Assembly: GCA_002746395.1 (NCBI GenBank)
Contig: NVXA01000004.1
Location: 161,757 to 171,780 of the forward strand
Direction of reading: 5' to 3'
DNA: 10,024 nt
DNA from: Paracoccaceae bacterium
Lineage (GTDB): Bacteria > Pseudomonadota > Alphaproteobacteria > Rhodobacterales > Rhodobacteraceae
Positions 2,336 through 10,024 of the stretch are shown piece by piece. How positions within the stretch are numbered: position 1 is the stretch's first letter; each line of letters starts with the position of its first letter. Under the pieces are notes generated by a model. It was given only the letters and a program-made list of their open reading frames with translations, was not told where the DNA came from and did not search any database. A program made the translations under genes and the position numbers.

Positions 2336-2986
2336 TTAAAGGTCGGATTTCACCCGAACCGTTGCCATATAGTCGGGGTCCTCAAACACCGAACCGTTCG
2401 CGCCGCTGTCACCGCGTTTGATCGCTTGAACAAACTCCATACCGCTGATCACACGACCGATGACGGTATATTGTCCGTCAAGAAAGCCCGCATCATCAAA
2501 CATGATGAAAAACTGCGAGTTTGCCGAATCCGGATCGTTGCTGCGCGCCATGCCGATAATACCTTCGACATAGGTGATGTTCGAAAACTCGGCTGGCAGG
2601 TTGGGCAGATCTGAGCCACCCATGCCGGACATGCGATAGTCATATCCCTCTAGCTTGCCGAATTCCACGTCGCCGGTTTGCGCCATGAAACCGTCAATCA
2701 CGCGGTGGAACACGATCCCGTCGTAAGCACCGGAGCGCGCCAACTCTTTGATACGCTCAACATGCAACGGCGCGAGGTCGGGGCGCATCAGGATTTCAAC
2801 AGTCCCGGCCCCCTCGCCCGCGATTTCGATTACCAGAATATTTTCATCTGCGGAAACTGCAGCGGTGGTTTCATTGCCACCGACCACGACTTGCGTGGGT
2901 TTGTTCGCAAGGAACAAGTATCCACTGCCAAGAATGGCCAAAATGGCAATAAAACCACCAAAAAGCTTTTTCTGTGCTTTAGACAT
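2336..2986 (-). CDS. Membrane-anchored cyclophilin-type peptidyl-prolyl isomerase
   Basis: This 216-residue protein catalyses cis-trans isomerisation of Xaa-Pro bonds, probably on the outer face of the cytoplasmic membrane. Residues 1-7 are basic (MSKAQKK) and residues 8-27 form one hydrophobic helix without a clear cleavage site, so it is probably an anchored protein facing the periplasm. A linker follows to about residue 47, then a cyclophilin domain. Active-site residues are visible by alignment to human CypA: Arg95, Phe100, Met101 and Gln103 in FHRVIDGFMAQTGD, and Gln158/Phe160 in NSQFFIMF. The CypA tryptophan position is Phe168. The ATG at 2986 overlaps the stop of the upstream cyclophilin gene (ATGTCTAA, 8 bases), suggesting translational coupling. 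An in-frame TTG at 2995 would add 3 residues and is less likely. The family is certain; the location is inferred. Confidence 0.88.
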   Translation of the reverse strand: MSKAQKKLFGGFIAILAILGSGYLFLANKPTQVVVGGNETTAAVSADENILVIEIAGEGAGTVEILMRPDLAPLHVERIKELARSGAYDGIVFHRVIDGFMAQTGDVEFGKLEGYDYRMSGMGGSDLPNLPAEFSNITYVEGIIGMARSNDPDSANSQFFIMFDDAGFLDGQYTVIGRVISGMEFVQAIKRGDSGANGSVFEDPDYMATVRVKSDL

Positions 2987-3485
2987 CTGCCGCAACTTTA
3001 ACCGAGATCATACGATCAGGATTTGGTGCAGGCTCGCCGCGCTGGATTGCGTCCACGTGCTGCATGCCGTCAATCACGCGACCAAATACGGTGTATTGGT
3101 TGTTAAGGAAGTGACCAGCATCGAACATGATGAAGAACTGCGAGTTGGCAGAATCAGGGTTTTGGCTACGCGCCGCGCCCAGAACGCCTTTGTCGAACGG
3201 CAGGCTGGAAAATTCAGCAGGCACGTTTGGATATTCGGAACCACCTGTGCCCGCGGCACGTAGGTTGAAATTGTTTTCCATGTTGCCGTTTTGAACGTCA
3301 CCGGTTTGCGCCATGAAGCCGTCAATCACGCGGTGGAAAGCGACGTTGTCGTATTTGCCTTCGCGAGTCAGCGTTTTGAAACGCTCAACATGCTTGGGGG
3401 CCACATCGGGCAGAAGCTCGATCGTGACGTTGCCGTCTTTAAGTTCGATGATAACGGTATTTTCCGGGTCTTTGATATCGGCCAT
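2979..3485 (-). CDS. ppiB: Cytosolic cyclophilin-type peptidyl-prolyl isomerase
   Basis: This 168-residue single-domain cyclophilin has no signal peptide, so it should act in the cytoplasm as a protein-folding proline isomerase. It has the catalytic pattern FHRVIDGFMAQTGD (Arg52, Phe57, Met58, Gln60) and NSQFFIMF (Gln116, Phe118). The tryptophan that confers high cyclosporin affinity in CypA is Phe126, as is common in bacterial PpiB. The ATG at 3485 has a perfect AGGAGG at 3491-3496, 5 bases upstream. The stop overlaps the start of the membrane-anchored paralogue by 8 bases, so the two form a co-translated pair. They share most active-site blocks and probably arose by tandem duplication. Confidence 0.92.
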   Translation of the reverse strand: MADIKDPENTVIIELKDGNVTIELLPDVAPKHVERFKTLTREGKYDNVAFHRVIDGFMAQTGDVQNGNMENNFNLRAAGTGGSEYPNVPAEFSSLPFDKGVLGAARSQNPDSANSQFFIMFDAGHFLNNQYTVFGRVIDGMQHVDAIQRGEPAPNPDRMISVKVAADV

Positions 3486-5609: not shown

Positions 5610-7106
5610 ATGAAAGAATTAACACATTACATCAACGGCGAGCATGTCAAAGGCACGTCTGGCCGTTTTGCAGACGTCAACAACCCCGCCATTGGCGAGG
5701 TTATCGCGAAGACGCCGCTGGCTTCACGCGAAGAAATGGACATCGCGGTTAAAGCTGCCGCTGCTGCGCAACCTGCGTGGGCTGCCGTGAACCCGCAACG
5801 CCGTGCGCGCGTGATGATGAAGATGGTAGATCTTCTGCACCGCGACATGGACAAACTGGCCGAGGCCTTGTCCAAAGAACACGGCAAGACCCTGCCGGAT
5901 GCCAAAGGCGACGTGATCCGTGGCCTTGAAGTTGTGGAATACTGCATCGGCGCGCCGCAGTTGTTGAAAGGTGAATACACCGACGGCGCTGGCCCCGGCA
6001 TTGATATGTATTCCATGAAACAGGCGCTTGGCGTCACGGCCGGTGTTACTCCGTTCAACTTTCCCGCGATGATCCCGTTGTGGATGTGCGCCCCGGCGAT
6101 TGCGTGTGGTAACGCATTCATCCTGAAACCATCCGAGCGTAACCCGACAGTGCCGATCATGCTGGCCGAATTGTTTGAGGAAGCAGGCCTTCCAAAAGGC
6201 ATCATGCAGGTTGTTAACGGCGATAAAGACGCGGTGGATGCGATTATCGAACACCCGACTATCCAGTCGATCGGTTTTGTTGGCTCCACCCCGATTGCCG
6301 AATATATTTACGGTAATGGCTGTGCGGCAGGCAAACGTGTGCAGGCATTTGGCGGCGCGAAGAACCACGCTATCATCATGCCGGACGCGGATATGGACAA
6401 CGTTGTAGACGCGCTGATCGGTGCGGGTTACGGCGCGGCTGGCGAACGCTGCATGGCGATTTCGGTTGCCGTTCCAGTTGGCGAAGACACGGCAGATCGC
6501 TTGATCGCCGCCTTGGCCCCACGGGTCGAGAGCCTGAAGATCGGTCCTTACACATCTGGCGATGATGTGGATTTCGGCCCTGTCATCACGGGTGCTGCGA
6601 AGGACAAGATCAACGGCTTGGTCGAAAGCGGCATTGCACAAGGCGCAACGCTGGCGGTCGATGGTCGCGGGTTTAGCCTGCAAGGGTACGAGGATGGTTT
6701 CTTCGTCGGGGCCTCCCTATTCGACAACGTCACAACGGATATGGACATCTACAAGCAGGAAATTTTCGGCCCTGTTTTGTCGGTTGTTCGCGCCCAAACC
6801 TATGAGGAAGCCATTGGCCACGCCATGGACCACGAATACGGCAACGGCACCGCGATCTTCACCCGTGACGGTGACACGGCCCGCGATTTCGCCAGCCGTA
6901 TCAATGTCGGCATGGTTGGCGTGAACGTGCCAATCCCCGTGCCGCTGGCCTACCACACATTTGGCGGCTGGAAAAAATCGGCATTTGGCGATTTGAACCA
7001 ACACGGGCCGGATGCATTCAAGTTCTACACGCGCACCAAAACGGTAACGTCGCGCTGGCCTTCGGGTGCTAAAGAAGGCGCTAACTTCTCTATTCCAACG
7101 ATGTAG
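5610..7106 (+). CDS. mmsA: CoA-acylating methylmalonate-semialdehyde dehydrogenase
   Basis: This 498-residue aldehyde dehydrogenase oxidises methylmalonate semialdehyde with NAD+ and CoA to propionyl-CoA and CO2, the last step of distal valine breakdown; the enzyme also handles malonate semialdehyde. Features that set MmsA apart from other aldehyde dehydrogenases are visible: GVTPFNFPAMIPLWM before the cofactor segment with KPSERNP, the FVGSTPIAEYIY strand, and the catalytic YGAAGERCMAISVAV with Cys281. Length is typical. The ATG at 5610 has GGAG at 5600-5603, 6 bases upstream. The gene is divergent from lysR, is followed by a strong terminator, and lies just upstream of the other valine-pathway enzymes. 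Confidence in the call is high. Confidence 0.96.
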   Translation: MKELTHYINGEHVKGTSGRFADVNNPAIGEVIAKTPLASREEMDIAVKAAAAAQPAWAAVNPQRRARVMMKMVDLLHRDMDKLAEALSKEHGKTLPDAKGDVIRGLEVVEYCIGAPQLLKGEYTDGAGPGIDMYSMKQALGVTAGVTPFNFPAMIPLWMCAPAIACGNAFILKPSERNPTVPIMLAELFEEAGLPKGIMQVVNGDKDAVDAIIEHPTIQSIGFVGSTPIAEYIYGNGCAAGKRVQAFGGAKNHAIIMPDADMDNVVDALIGAGYGAAGERCMAISVAVPVGEDTADRLIAALAPRVESLKIGPYTSGDDVDFGPVITGAAKDKINGLVESGIAQGATLAVDGRGFSLQGYEDGFFVGASLFDNVTTDMDIYKQEIFGPVLSVVRAQTYEEAIGHAMDHEYGNGTAIFTRDGDTARDFASRINVGMVGVNVPIPVPLAYHTFGGWKKSAFGDLNQHGPDAFKFYTRTKTVTSRWPSGAKEGANFSIPTM

Positions 7107-7127: not shown

Positions 7128-7160
7128 AAATGCCCCGACCTGTTCGGGGCATTTTCATTT
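7128..7160 (+). terminator. Strong intrinsic terminator after mmsA
   Basis: TGCCCCGA at 7131-7138 pairs perfectly with TCGGGGCA at 7144-7151 around a 5-base loop, extended by three A-T pairs (7128-7130 with 7152-7154). The tail is TTTTCATTT. It lies 22 bases after the mmsA stop and separates mmsA transcription from the following genes. Confidence 0.88.
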
Positions 7161-7236: not shown

Positions 7237-7473
7237 ATGAACACTGCTTTGATAATATTCATTCTGTCTTTCATCGCCTTCGCGATGCTCAACAACTATT
7301 TCCTGAAGAACGATTATGAATACCAACGCCAAAGCAAAGAATACTCTTTATTGAGAGACCCACTGGGCATCGGCCGCTTTAAGCGACAGCCTAAGAAAAT
7401 GCTCGCTCTTATGGCCGTATTATTCGGGCCGATCGGCGTCTACAAACTCGTCCTAACTCTGACCACAGGATAA
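7237..7473 (+). CDS. Small two-helix membrane protein, unrecognised
   Basis: This is a 78-residue protein I do not recognise. It has an N-terminal hydrophobic helix (about 3-23), a polar basic segment with KNDYEYQRQSKEY and RFKRQPKK, and a second hydrophobic helix (about 54-74) containing a GPIGVYK turn. The predicted form is a hairpin of two membrane spans with a positively charged loop. CGGAA at 7226-7230 is a modest ribosome site 6 bases before the ATG. Codon use is more AT-rich than in the flanking enzymes. Its last codons, ACA-GGA-TAA, supply the ribosome site of the next gene, whose ATG is 4 bases beyond the stop, so the two are probably co-transcribed and perhaps coupled. No catalytic motif is seen, and a role in valine catabolism cannot be claimed. 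Confidence 0.65.
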   Translation: MNTALIIFILSFIAFAMLNNYFLKNDYEYQRQSKEYSLLRDPLGIGRFKRQPKKMLALMAVLFGPIGVYKLVLTLTTG

Positions 7474-7477
7474 CCTC

Positions 7478-8629
7478 ATGGATTTTGCACTTTCTGAAGA
7501 ACAGCAGATGATTTTTGACATGGCCTATGATTTTGGCCAAGAAAAGATCGCCCCGTTCGCTGCGCAATGGGAAGAAGACGGGACCATCCCCAAATCGCTT
7601 TGGCCAGAAATTGCGGCCCTTGGTTTTGGCGGGCTTTATGTATCCGAAGAATTTGGCGGGTCCGGCCTATCGCGCCTAGATGCGACGCTGGTGTTCGAGG
7701 CTTTGGCCATGGCCTGCCCTGCTGTCGGGTCTTTCCTGTCCATCCACAATATGTGCGGCGGCATGATCGACAAGTTTGGCAACGCCGAGACCAAAGCCAA
7801 ATGGTTGCCGGATCTTTGCACAATGGAAAAGGTGTTTTCCTATGCGTTGACGGAACCGGGCAGTGGCTCGGACGCCTCAGCACTTCGCACCAAAGCCGAC
7901 AAAACGGCTGATGGTTACAGCCTGAACGGAACCAAGGCGTTCATTTCAGGCGGCGGATATTCCGATGCTTACGTGGTCATGGTGCGCACGGGCGAGGACG
8001 GCCCCAAAGGCATTTCTTCGGTCATAGTGGAGGCCGGCACAGACGGGTTATCGTTTGGTGCGTTAGAAAGAAAGATGGGCTGGAAGGCGCAACCAACGGC
8101 ACAAGTGCAGTTTGATGATTGCAAAATTCCAGCCGATAATCTGATTGGCGAAGAAGGCAAAGGTTTCAAATACGCGATGGCCGGACTTGATGGCGGGCGT
8201 TTGAATATTTCGGCCTCCGCCCTTGGGGGGGCGCAAAATGCGTTGAACATTGCGCTGAATTATATGGGGGAACGCAAGGCGTTTGGCAAAACCATCGACC
8301 AGTTCCAAGCGTTGCAATTCCGCGTGGCAGACATGGAAATCGAGCTGCAAGCCGCCCGCACCTTCCTGCGCCAAGCCGCATGGAAACTGGACACCGGCGC
8401 GCCTGACGCCAGCAAATTCTGCGCCATGGCGAAACGGTTTGTAACCGACACGGCGTTCGAGGTGGCCAATGGGTCGCTGCAAATGCTGGGTGGATATGGG
8501 TATCTGTCCGACTATGGCATTGAAAAAATCGTGCGGGACTTGCGGGTTCACCAAATCTTGGAGGGCACGAACGAGATCATGCGCCTTATCACCGCCCGTA
8601 CCTTGTTGCAGGAGCGTGATCGTGGCTGA
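7478..8629 (+). CDS. Acyl-CoA dehydrogenase, isobutyryl-CoA dehydrogenase-like
   Basis: This 383-residue flavoprotein is predicted to oxidise isobutyryl-CoA to methacrylyl-CoA, passing electrons to electron-transfer flavoprotein. It starts with the family-typical FALSEEQQMIFDMA, has the flavin and substrate segment YALTEPGSGSDAS at 122-134, then NGTKAFISGG, and the C-terminal HQILEGTNEIMRLI with the catalytic base Glu362. The segments VVMVRTGEDGPKGISS, GLDGGRLNISASALGGA and MLGGYGYLSDYGIEK resemble mammalian ACAD8 (isobutyryl-CoA dehydrogenase) more than other family members I recall. AGGA at 7467-7470 lies 7 bases before the ATG. The stop overlaps the next gene's GTG start by 8 bases. The neighbours mmsA, a hydroxyisobutyryl-CoA hydrolase and mmsB support the valine assignment; another branched short-chain substrate remains possible. 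Confidence 0.88.
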   Translation: MDFALSEEQQMIFDMAYDFGQEKIAPFAAQWEEDGTIPKSLWPEIAALGFGGLYVSEEFGGSGLSRLDATLVFEALAMACPAVGSFLSIHNMCGGMIDKFGNAETKAKWLPDLCTMEKVFSYALTEPGSGSDASALRTKADKTADGYSLNGTKAFISGGGYSDAYVVMVRTGEDGPKGISSVIVEAGTDGLSFGALERKMGWKAQPTAQVQFDDCKIPADNLIGEEGKGFKYAMAGLDGGRLNISASALGGAQNALNIALNYMGERKAFGKTIDQFQALQFRVADMEIELQAARTFLRQAAWKLDTGAPDASKFCAMAKRFVTDTAFEVANGSLQMLGGYGYLSDYGIEKIVRDLRVHQILEGTNEIMRLITARTLLQERDRG

Positions 8630-10024
8630 TATCGACATTCGCATTGACGGCAAGATAGGGCGCATCACCCTGAACCGCCCCGAGGCGTTGAACGCCCTGA
8701 CCTATGATATGGTCCTGAAAATCGAAGACGCGCTGGATGCATGGGCGAATGACGACCGCGTCGCCCTGATCCTGATTGATGCCATCGGCGACAAAGCGTT
8801 TTGTGCGGGCGGTGACATTCAACAGATGTATGACACGGCGGCGGCAGGCGACTATGAATATGGCCGCAAATTCTGGCGTGATGAATACCGTATGAATGCG
8901 AAACTGGCCAACTTTCCCAAAGCCTACATCGCGCTGATGCAGGGGTTCACCATGGGTGGCGGTGTCGGGGTTTCGTGCCACGGATCGCACCGTGTGGTGT
9001 GCGAAAACAGCCAGATCGCCATGCCGGAATGCGGCATCGGGTTGGTGCCGGATGTCGGGGGGTCGATGTTGTTGGCGCAAGCGCCGGGACGTCTGGGCGA
9101 ATATCTAGGCGCAACTGGCACGCGGATGAACACGGGCGATGCTATTTATTGCGGCTTTGCGGATTACTATATTCCGCGCGCTGATTGGGCGGAACTAACG
9201 GCGCGTCTGGTTCAAACGGGCGATTACGCGCAAGTCGATGCGATGGCGCAAACACCCCCAGCCAGCGACCTTGCGGCGCAGCAGACCCAAATTGATGCGG
9301 CCTTTGGCGGCGAGACAATCGCCGACATCCTGAACGGTTTTGATGATAGCGCGTGGTCTGAAGCGGCGGCCAAGGCCCTCGCACGTGGCTGCCCCCTTTC
9401 GGTCGGGTCCTGCATTGCGCTGATCCACCGTGTGCGAGGACTTCCGGACATCGCTTCGGTTTTGAAACAGGAATACCGCTTCACGTATCGCAGCGCCTCG
9501 GACGGGGATTTTGTCGAAGGGATCCGCGCCGCGATCATCGACAAAGACCGCAATCCGAAATGGAAAATCCCGACGTTGCGCGACGTGCGCGACATCGACG
9601 TTACAAAAATGCTGATGCCTTTGGGCGAACACGAGCTTAAACTGGAGGAACCCCACATGAAAATCGGATTTATCGGGCTTGGAAATATGGGTGCGCCAAT
9701 GGCGCGCAACCTGTTGGCGGCGGGCCATTCTGTTGCGGCTTTTGACGTGGCTGGCGTGACTATCGAGGGTGCGGAAACGGCCAGCACGGCCGCACAAGCG
9801 GCAGATGGCGCAGACGTGGTTATCACCATGCTGCCAAACGGCGCGATTTTGCGAAGTGTGGCGAACGAGGTTATCCCTGCGATGAAATCCGGCGCCTGCC
9901 TTGTGGATTGCTCAACCGTAGACGTTGAATCCGCCCGCGCCGTTGCGAGCCAAGCCAACGCTGCCGGATTACTGGCGGTAGACGCCCCTGTTTCCGGCGG
10001 AATTGGCGGCGCTGAAGCTGGCAC
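8622..10024 (+). CDS. 3-hydroxyisobutyryl-CoA hydrolase-like protein continuing in frame into MmsB (partial)
   Basis: The frame opens at GTG 8622, with AGGAG at 8610-8614 seven bases upstream, and overlaps the preceding stop (GTGGCTGA). No stop occurs before the window end, giving 467 full codons. Residues 1-345 are a crotonase-fold protein of the 3-hydroxyisobutyryl-CoA hydrolase type: ITLNRPEALNAL, AFCAGGDIQ, the oxyanion segment MGGGVGVS, and MPECGIGLVPDVGG with Glu136 and Asp144, spaced 8 apart like the catalytic Glu/Asp of human HIBCH. The late block DFVEGIRAAIIDKDRNPKW is typical of HIBCH rather than short enoyl-CoA hydratases. The predicted reaction is hydrolysis of 3-hydroxyisobutyryl-CoA to 3-hydroxyisobutyrate. 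After HELKLEEPH the frame runs into MKIGFIGLGNMG, the start of MmsB. It may be a real two-enzyme fusion of about 630 residues, or a split pair whose stop was lost. Confidence 0.8.
   Translation, partial: MADIDIRIDGKIGRITLNRPEALNALTYDMVLKIEDALDAWANDDRVALILIDAIGDKAFCAGGDIQQMYDTAAAGDYEYGRKFWRDEYRMNAKLANFPKAYIALMQGFTMGGGVGVSCHGSHRVVCENSQIAMPECGIGLVPDVGGSMLLAQAPGRLGEYLGATGTRMNTGDAIYCGFADYYIPRADWAELTARLVQTGDYAQVDAMAQTPPASDLAAQQTQIDAAFGGETIADILNGFDDSAWSEAAAKALARGCPLSVGSCIALIHRVRGLPDIASVLKQEYRFTYRSASDGDFVEGIRAAIIDKDRNPKWKIPTLRDVRDIDVTKMLMPLGEHELKLEEPHMKIGFIGLGNMGAPMARNLLAAGHSVAAFDVAGVTIEGAETASTAAQAADGADVVITMLPNGAILRSVANEVIPAMKSGACLVDCSTVDVESARAVASQANAAGLLAVDAPVSGGIGGAEAG
9644..9648 (+). promoter_or_regulatory. 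Internal ribosome binding site for mmsB
   Basis: GGAGG lies 8 bases before the ATG at 9657, inside the continuous reading frame. It suggests that MmsB can be, or once was, translated on its own, whatever the status of the upstream frame. Confidence 0.65.
9657..10024 (+). CDS. mmsB: 3-hydroxyisobutyrate dehydrogenase, N-terminal part (continues past the window)
   Basis: The first 122 codons are visible; the gene runs off the right edge. The protein oxidises 3-hydroxyisobutyrate to methylmalonate semialdehyde with NAD+, feeding MmsA. Residues 1-28 form the Rossmann entry with the dinucleotide motif GLGNMG (G7, G9, G12) and an aspartate ending the second strand in FDV. Then come VVITMLPNG, VDCSTVDVESAR and the substrate-site signature DAPVSGG at 109-115, all standard for the beta-hydroxyacid dehydrogenase family and this member. 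The catalytic lysine lies beyond the window. The ATG has its own strong ribosome site, yet the frame is continuous with the upstream hydrolase, so this coordinate is an internal start within a longer open frame. Enzyme identity is firm; whether it is made separately is open. Confidence 0.85.
   Translation, partial: MKIGFIGLGNMGAPMARNLLAAGHSVAAFDVAGVTIEGAETASTAAQAADGADVVITMLPNGAILRSVANEVIPAMKSGACLVDCSTVDVESARAVASQANAAGLLAVDAPVSGGIGGAEAG

Follow-up and report, generated by a model that had tools for sequence, protein, structure and literature searches.

A fused hydrolase-dehydrogenase of valine breakdown that retains an internal start codon in Rhodobacteraceae

In the window, a stretch of 10,024 nucleotides from a Paracoccaceae bacterium (contig NVXA01000004.1), two enzymes of valine breakdown, 3-hydroxyisobutyryl-CoA hydrolase (HIBCH) and 3-hydroxyisobutyrate dehydrogenase (MmsB), share what looks like one reading frame. 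Is this a genuine gene fusion or an accident of sequencing, how did it arise, and what would be made from it? A sequence-only reading had described one open frame from HIBCH through a linker into MmsB, and translation bears this out, with no stop between GTG 8622 and the window end. The frame extends past the window and closes, still on that contig, with a stop codon at L009:4284-4286, for a total of 635 aa; the MmsB ATG is in frame with the GTG, and MmsB begins at residue 346 of the fused chain (Table 1). The valine-breakdown pair is encoded here as a single long protein, a genuine gene fusion.

Table 1. Features of the fused locus and its upstream neighbors (window coordinates unless prefixed).
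Feature	Position	Strand	Evidence and remarks
mmsA, methylmalonate-semialdehyde dehydrogenase	5610..7106	+	TIGR01722, 633.9 bits (cut-off 448.5)
Acyl-CoA dehydrogenase (acd)	7478..8629	+	Domain match; 3' end overlaps HIBCH start by 8 nt
HIBCH part of fused ORF, residues 1-335	8622..9626	+	NF004127, ECH_2; GTG start
Linker EHELKLEEPH, 10 codons	9627..9656	+	Translation
Shine-Dalgarno GGAGG within frame	9644..9648	+	8 nt upstream of MmsB ATG; -9.3 kcal/mol with the 16S tail
MmsB part, ATG 9657	9657..10024, continues to L009:4284-4286	+	TIGR01692; 290 aa from ATG 9657

Each domain is a typical member of a known family. The HIBCH-type ECH_2 domain spans residues 12-330 (3.6e-113) and NAD_binding_2 begins at residue 347. 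The HIBCH part passes the curated cut-off of NF004127 (380.7 bits against 274; 381.5 bits in the genome search), and the MmsB part, a full-length match covering profile positions 1-287 of 288, scores 363.8 bits with TIGR01692, whose cut-off is 291.6. In the 42 fused proteins that we aligned, E136 and D144 of the HIBCH motif MPE...PDVGG are invariant, and 4hdt and 4j2u have identical residues at the aligned positions; we take them to be the catalytic Glu and Asp. Also invariant are GLGNMG (352-357), S458-G460, K507 and N511 of the MmsB part, aligned with 5y8g; these presumably correspond to the Rossmann GxGxxG, the SGG, and the Lys and Asn of GxGxxxKxxxN, with S458, K507 and N511 catalytic. The HIBCH GTG start has its own Shine-Dalgarno pairing at -7.4 kcal/mol. 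The fused ORF is the only HIBCH and the only HIBADH above the curated cut-offs in the assembly (96.87% complete), so that any working valine breakdown here would have to draw its HIBCH activity from the fused chain. Single N bases occur within MmsB at L009:3782 and 3803, both at third codon positions.

The gene just upstream, acd, is probably an isobutyryl-CoA dehydrogenase, judging by gene context, and mmsA acts at a later step of the same pathway as the fused pair. Between these two lies a small ORF (7237-7473, +) of 78 aa, MNTALIIFILSFIAFAML..., with a hydrophobic start, which stops just upstream of acd; it is kept in four other genomes of the genus (68-79% identity) and in the more distant L058 and L060 (51-57%). 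Directly 3' of mmsA, at about 7131-7156 (+), a GCCCCGA...TCGGGGC hairpin followed by ATTTTC resembles a terminator by eye, and acd-HIBCH-MmsB may therefore have their own transcript; a scan did not flag this hairpin, and Rfam gave no match in the window at gathering scores. Elsewhere we noted a hydrophobic 333-aa protein with no Pfam match at E 0.001 (206-1207, +), two adjoining and slightly overlapping cyclophilin-type peptidyl-prolyl isomerase genes (2336-3485, -), a protein with a Flp pilin-like N-terminus, by eye, followed by a long Asp/Ser repeat run (L009:5222-5593, -), and a uvrA-like ORF downstream of MmsB with many X residues. These, like the N bases in MmsB, may be either ambiguous positions of the assembly or withheld letters.

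A possible objection is that a sequencing or assembly error deleted a stop codon. The sequence-only reading had itself raised this, noting that one missing T before the TTAA at 9637-9640 could explain the open frame, and many assemblies in our sample are fragmented. We looked at the genus of the window, for which 13 genomes were sampled and 10 matched, the window's own included (G007, G009 and G012 gave no match). The whole fused ORF is present in four of the nine other matching genomes (G001, G003, G006, G011); the frame is open through 92 MmsB codons in G002, where the contig ends, and just beyond the MmsB ATG in G005 and G010, again followed by the contig end; G004 and G008 are unfused. The fused relatives, at 75-90% HIBCH identity, have the same linker length and frame as the window, which disposes of the one-base explanation and speaks against a very recent join. 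The same open junction recurs in many other genera, and together with its presence across the genus this places it beyond chance.

Fused proteins are moreover already public. A protein database search (8000 candidates scored, 7182 found) was followed up for the best 120 of the 7182; all of these, 631-661 aa long, carry both ECH_2 and NAD_binding_2 (read by eye), the pair of domains for which such a search had been proposed. Forty-two of the 120 were aligned, the window's own protein among them, whose identity to the other 41 is 63-89%. Pelagimonas varians and Sulfitobacter sp. JL08 are two of several named isolates, with megabase contigs, that contribute such proteins; Mameliella alba and Thalassobius vesicularis are further cultured species with the fusion. 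One fused record, P0064, also appears as a complete transcript ORF under the source 'mmetsp', which we take to be a set of transcriptomes from marine eukaryotes. Most of the best 120 rows are nameless; where a name is given, it is mostly '3-hydroxyisobutyrate dehydrogenase', so that the HIBCH of dozens of genera is hidden behind the name of its partner. With the open frame repeated in other same-genus assemblies and in named isolates on megabase contigs, we reject sequencing or assembly error, to which we assign practically no probability.

How common is the join? A family sample of 394 genomes, practically one per genus, gave 319 matches, and 150 of these loci were classed, from a listing that favors in-frame ones: 45 are fused, another 45 have a same-frame stop, 58 are in a different frame, one lacks an adjacent MmsB and one is truncated. 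To lessen this bias we searched again with HIBCH alone, matching 316 of the 394 genomes; the best 150 of these 316, ranked by likeness to the HIBCH of one fused relative, whose kin are thereby over-represented, comprised 41 fused loci, 53 with an ATGA overlap, 37 with a stop in another frame, 18 with an in-frame stop and one without an adjacent MmsB. The union of both lists is 198 loci, one per genus, with 45 fused; the 48 loci gained from the HIBCH-only search are all unfused, in another frame. Separate genes are accordingly the usual arrangement among the loci examined, as the sequence-only reading had stated for related bacteria. A class search (385 genomes, matches at 1e-150 or better) returned 27 matches; all 25 from outside the family have at least one stop somewhere in the matched stretch, and none was therefore counted as fused.

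To place the join in history we used a protein tree of 199 rows, made up of 193 of the 198 loci and six extra rows of the window's genus; the five loci left off were incomplete, lacked an adjacent MmsB, or had MmsB 720 nt away. Support values are SH-aLRT from a quick search. The fused state changes 22 times on this tree, gains and losses taken together, where shuffles need 44.6; starred branches force at least 12 of the 22. A previous tree, built from the first, in-frame-biased list, gave 11 changes; the rise to 22 reflects the 48 added loci, all of them unfused. The join has thus been switched on or off many times in the family. Fused loci cluster on the tree and hence are not independent of one another. 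In the window's genus six fused rows lie beneath one well-supported branch, with the sister (L027) and the surrounding rows unfused; by parsimony this looks like an isolated, separate gain. We also considered an argument for selection on frame-keeping from indel lengths, since 19 of 40 length changes in unfused clades are not divisible by three and none are in purely fused clades; we rejected it because changes from fused to fused are in frame by definition and because the first list favored in-frame loci.

Why do such fusions arise? The loci themselves supply a test, in that the end of HIBCH may lie in any of three frames relative to MmsB. We applied it to 148 of the 150 HIBCH-ranked loci (one without an adjacent MmsB and one with MmsB 720 nt away were left out), taking rows without correction for kinship. 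When HIBCH is in MmsB's frame (frame 0) it runs on into MmsB in 41 of 58 loci, and for frame 2 the corresponding run-on, as far as the ATGA, occurs in 53 of 71 (p 0.69); in frame 1 a stop precedes MmsB in all 19 loci, so that run-on is 0/19 (p 1.7e-8 against frame 0). For comparison, the last 33 bases are free of stops in 68%, 45% and 61% of loci at offsets 0, 1 and 2, irrespective of which frame is used. The junction in this way provides an internal control: run-on in frame is common, at about the level expected by chance, and overrun out of frame is not seen, hence fusion looks tolerated. Out-of-frame overrun seems to be removed and in-frame run-on seems not to be.

These frequencies bear on the proposal that the fusion is adaptive, with 3-hydroxyisobutyrate passed from HIBCH to MmsB, or the ratio of the two enzymes fixed, and the join kept by selection. 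The two enzymes catalyze consecutive steps, the join has occurred repeatedly, and fused states cluster on the tree, although inheritance alone gives the same clustering. In-frame run-on is, however, no commoner than frame-2 run-on and matches the stop-free fraction at offset 0; the fused state changes often on the tree; and 3-hydroxyisobutyrate is a stable free acid that does not need protection. The frame test thus lends no support to a selected hand-off of substrate, and the direct transfer envisaged in the sequence-only reading is unsupported; a weak benefit is still compatible with the data. We regard an adaptive fusion as very improbable, and favor tolerated drift, which MmsB's own ribosome-binding site would have enabled.

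That site is still in place. An in-frame start codon is kept at 45 of 45 fused loci, as ATG (41) or TTG (1) at the aligned position or as an ATG 9 nt upstream (3); at one of the 41 aligned-ATG loci the pairing with the 16S tail is better for a TTG that lies 15 bases upstream. The Shine-Dalgarno duplex with the 16S tail (kcal/mol) has a median of -8.6 in fused loci (n=45) and -9.5 in unfused loci (n=103; p 0.31), against -3.5 for control in-frame ATGs elsewhere in the fused genes (n=879; p 1.5e-20 against fused). These p values and those below are a guide only, the rows being related, and the comparison favors the junction a little, since its score is that of the strongest among as many as six in-frame start codons and each control has a single one. 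On the HIBCH-ranked list the pairing is slightly weaker in fused loci, -8.4 (n=41) against -9.85 (n=106, one unfused row without a start codon dropped; p 0.046). The internal ribosome-binding site and start codon are, in short, retained above background, the ribosome-binding site being slightly weaker in fused loci on the second list. Of the eight junctions in the window's genus that are fused or open, six pair at -8.6 to -9.3 and the other two at -5.5 and -4.6; the two unfused relatives stand at -5.6 and -5.9. RNA folding at the junction was nothing special (z 0.80), and we rejected the idea of a hairpin at the internal start.

The in-frame GGAGG and ATG had been read as a hint that MmsB is produced free as well as fused, and retention of the start codon at every fused locus suggests the same. 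One could instead see the internal Shine-Dalgarno and ATG as mere relics, with MmsB activity due entirely to the fused chain, and some lineages point that way. In the genus of G382, whose junction is that of Marivita hallyeonensis (L030), five of 17 genomes are fused, with pairing of -8.2, -6.6, -5.8, -3.7 and -0.1, where the 12 unfused have a median of -9.5 (p 0.0017); in this genus MmsB may come mainly from the fused chain. Pairing at the MmsB ATG is weak or nearly absent in two of these fused loci, L347 (-0.1; same junction as L055) and L345 (-3.7; same junction as L053). These are candidates for committed fusion with other in-frame starts near by: L055 has an in-frame TTG 27 nt upstream and L053 an in-frame ATG 42 nt downstream, both at -8.4, and other internal starts are therefore possible. 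Internal initiation may be fading in some lineages, to which the slight weakening on the HIBCH-ranked list can be added, and ribosomes running through from HIBCH could block the internal site. Against a fused chain acting alone stand the start codon at all 45 fused loci, including the three that have the upstream ATG, and the window's genus, where most fused or open junctions pair more strongly than the unfused ones. We think this reading unlikely.

The explanation that we prefer, and hold to be probable, is a lineage-fixed fusion that arose by drift, in which one mRNA yields both fused HIBCH-MmsB and free MmsB; we infer that both products are made and active. Because MmsB is furnished with a Shine-Dalgarno and ATG of its own, the 3' end of HIBCH would be free to drift. 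In one frame HIBCH would end with the TGA of the ATGA overlap; in the frame of MmsB it would read on, giving a fusion if the short tail happens to hold no stop. In the window, ribosomes initiating at GTG 8622 would make the 635-aa HIBCH-MmsB, each HIBCH chain carrying an MmsB tail, and a second pool of ribosomes, using the old binding site and start codon that persist inside the frame, would probably make free MmsB of 290 aa. We suggest tentatively, as an extension that is possible and on balance rather doubtful, that fused chains and free MmsB co-assemble as a mixed oligomer with fewer HIBCH than MmsB domains, the ratio being set by the internal ribosome-binding site; the family's operon would then have alternated repeatedly between two genes coupled by reinitiation and such an oligomer, and would have become a committed fusion wherever the internal site decayed.

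Discussions of how neighboring operon genes come to be fused, and of whether selection or drift is responsible, usually turn on a single example. At the present junction several states coexist within one family: an ATGA overlap, a stop ahead of the start, an open fusion that has an internal start, and a fusion whose start is decaying. Among the open-licence PubMed Central papers listed by literature searches, no title or abstract start describes an HIBCH-MmsB fusion, and 'hydroxyisobutyrate' does not occur in the available part of PMC3711429. Fusion of same-pathway enzymes and internal in-frame starts are both already known, from the available parts of PMC3148214 and PMC10212523; what is new is the combination of one junction switching state many times in one family with an internal start mostly retained.

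The nearest comparison is with the separate HIBCH and MmsB genes of most family loci examined, which have either an ATGA overlap or a stop just before the Shine-Dalgarno and ATG. They share the gene order, a Shine-Dalgarno in or after the 3' end of HIBCH, and the MmsB ATG, and differ in that HIBCH ends before or at the MmsB start, giving two proteins. The ATGA-overlap relatives have the layout of overlapping gene pairs that use termination-reinitiation, as described in the accessible part of PMC10666635; in the fused form there is no stop codon, so reinitiation cannot operate and internal initiation would be needed. For Cas10d/Cas11d of type I-D CRISPR the accessible part of PMC10212523 reports the short product, as part of one complex; in HIBCH-MmsB the short product is predicted, and fused and unfused forms alternate across genera. 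Finally, the eukaryotic G6PD-6PGL and G6PD-6PGD proteins are, in the part of PMC3148214 available, repeated independent fusions of enzymes of the same pathway; HIBCH-MmsB resembles them in this and differs in being bacterial, at one operon junction, with many switches within one family.
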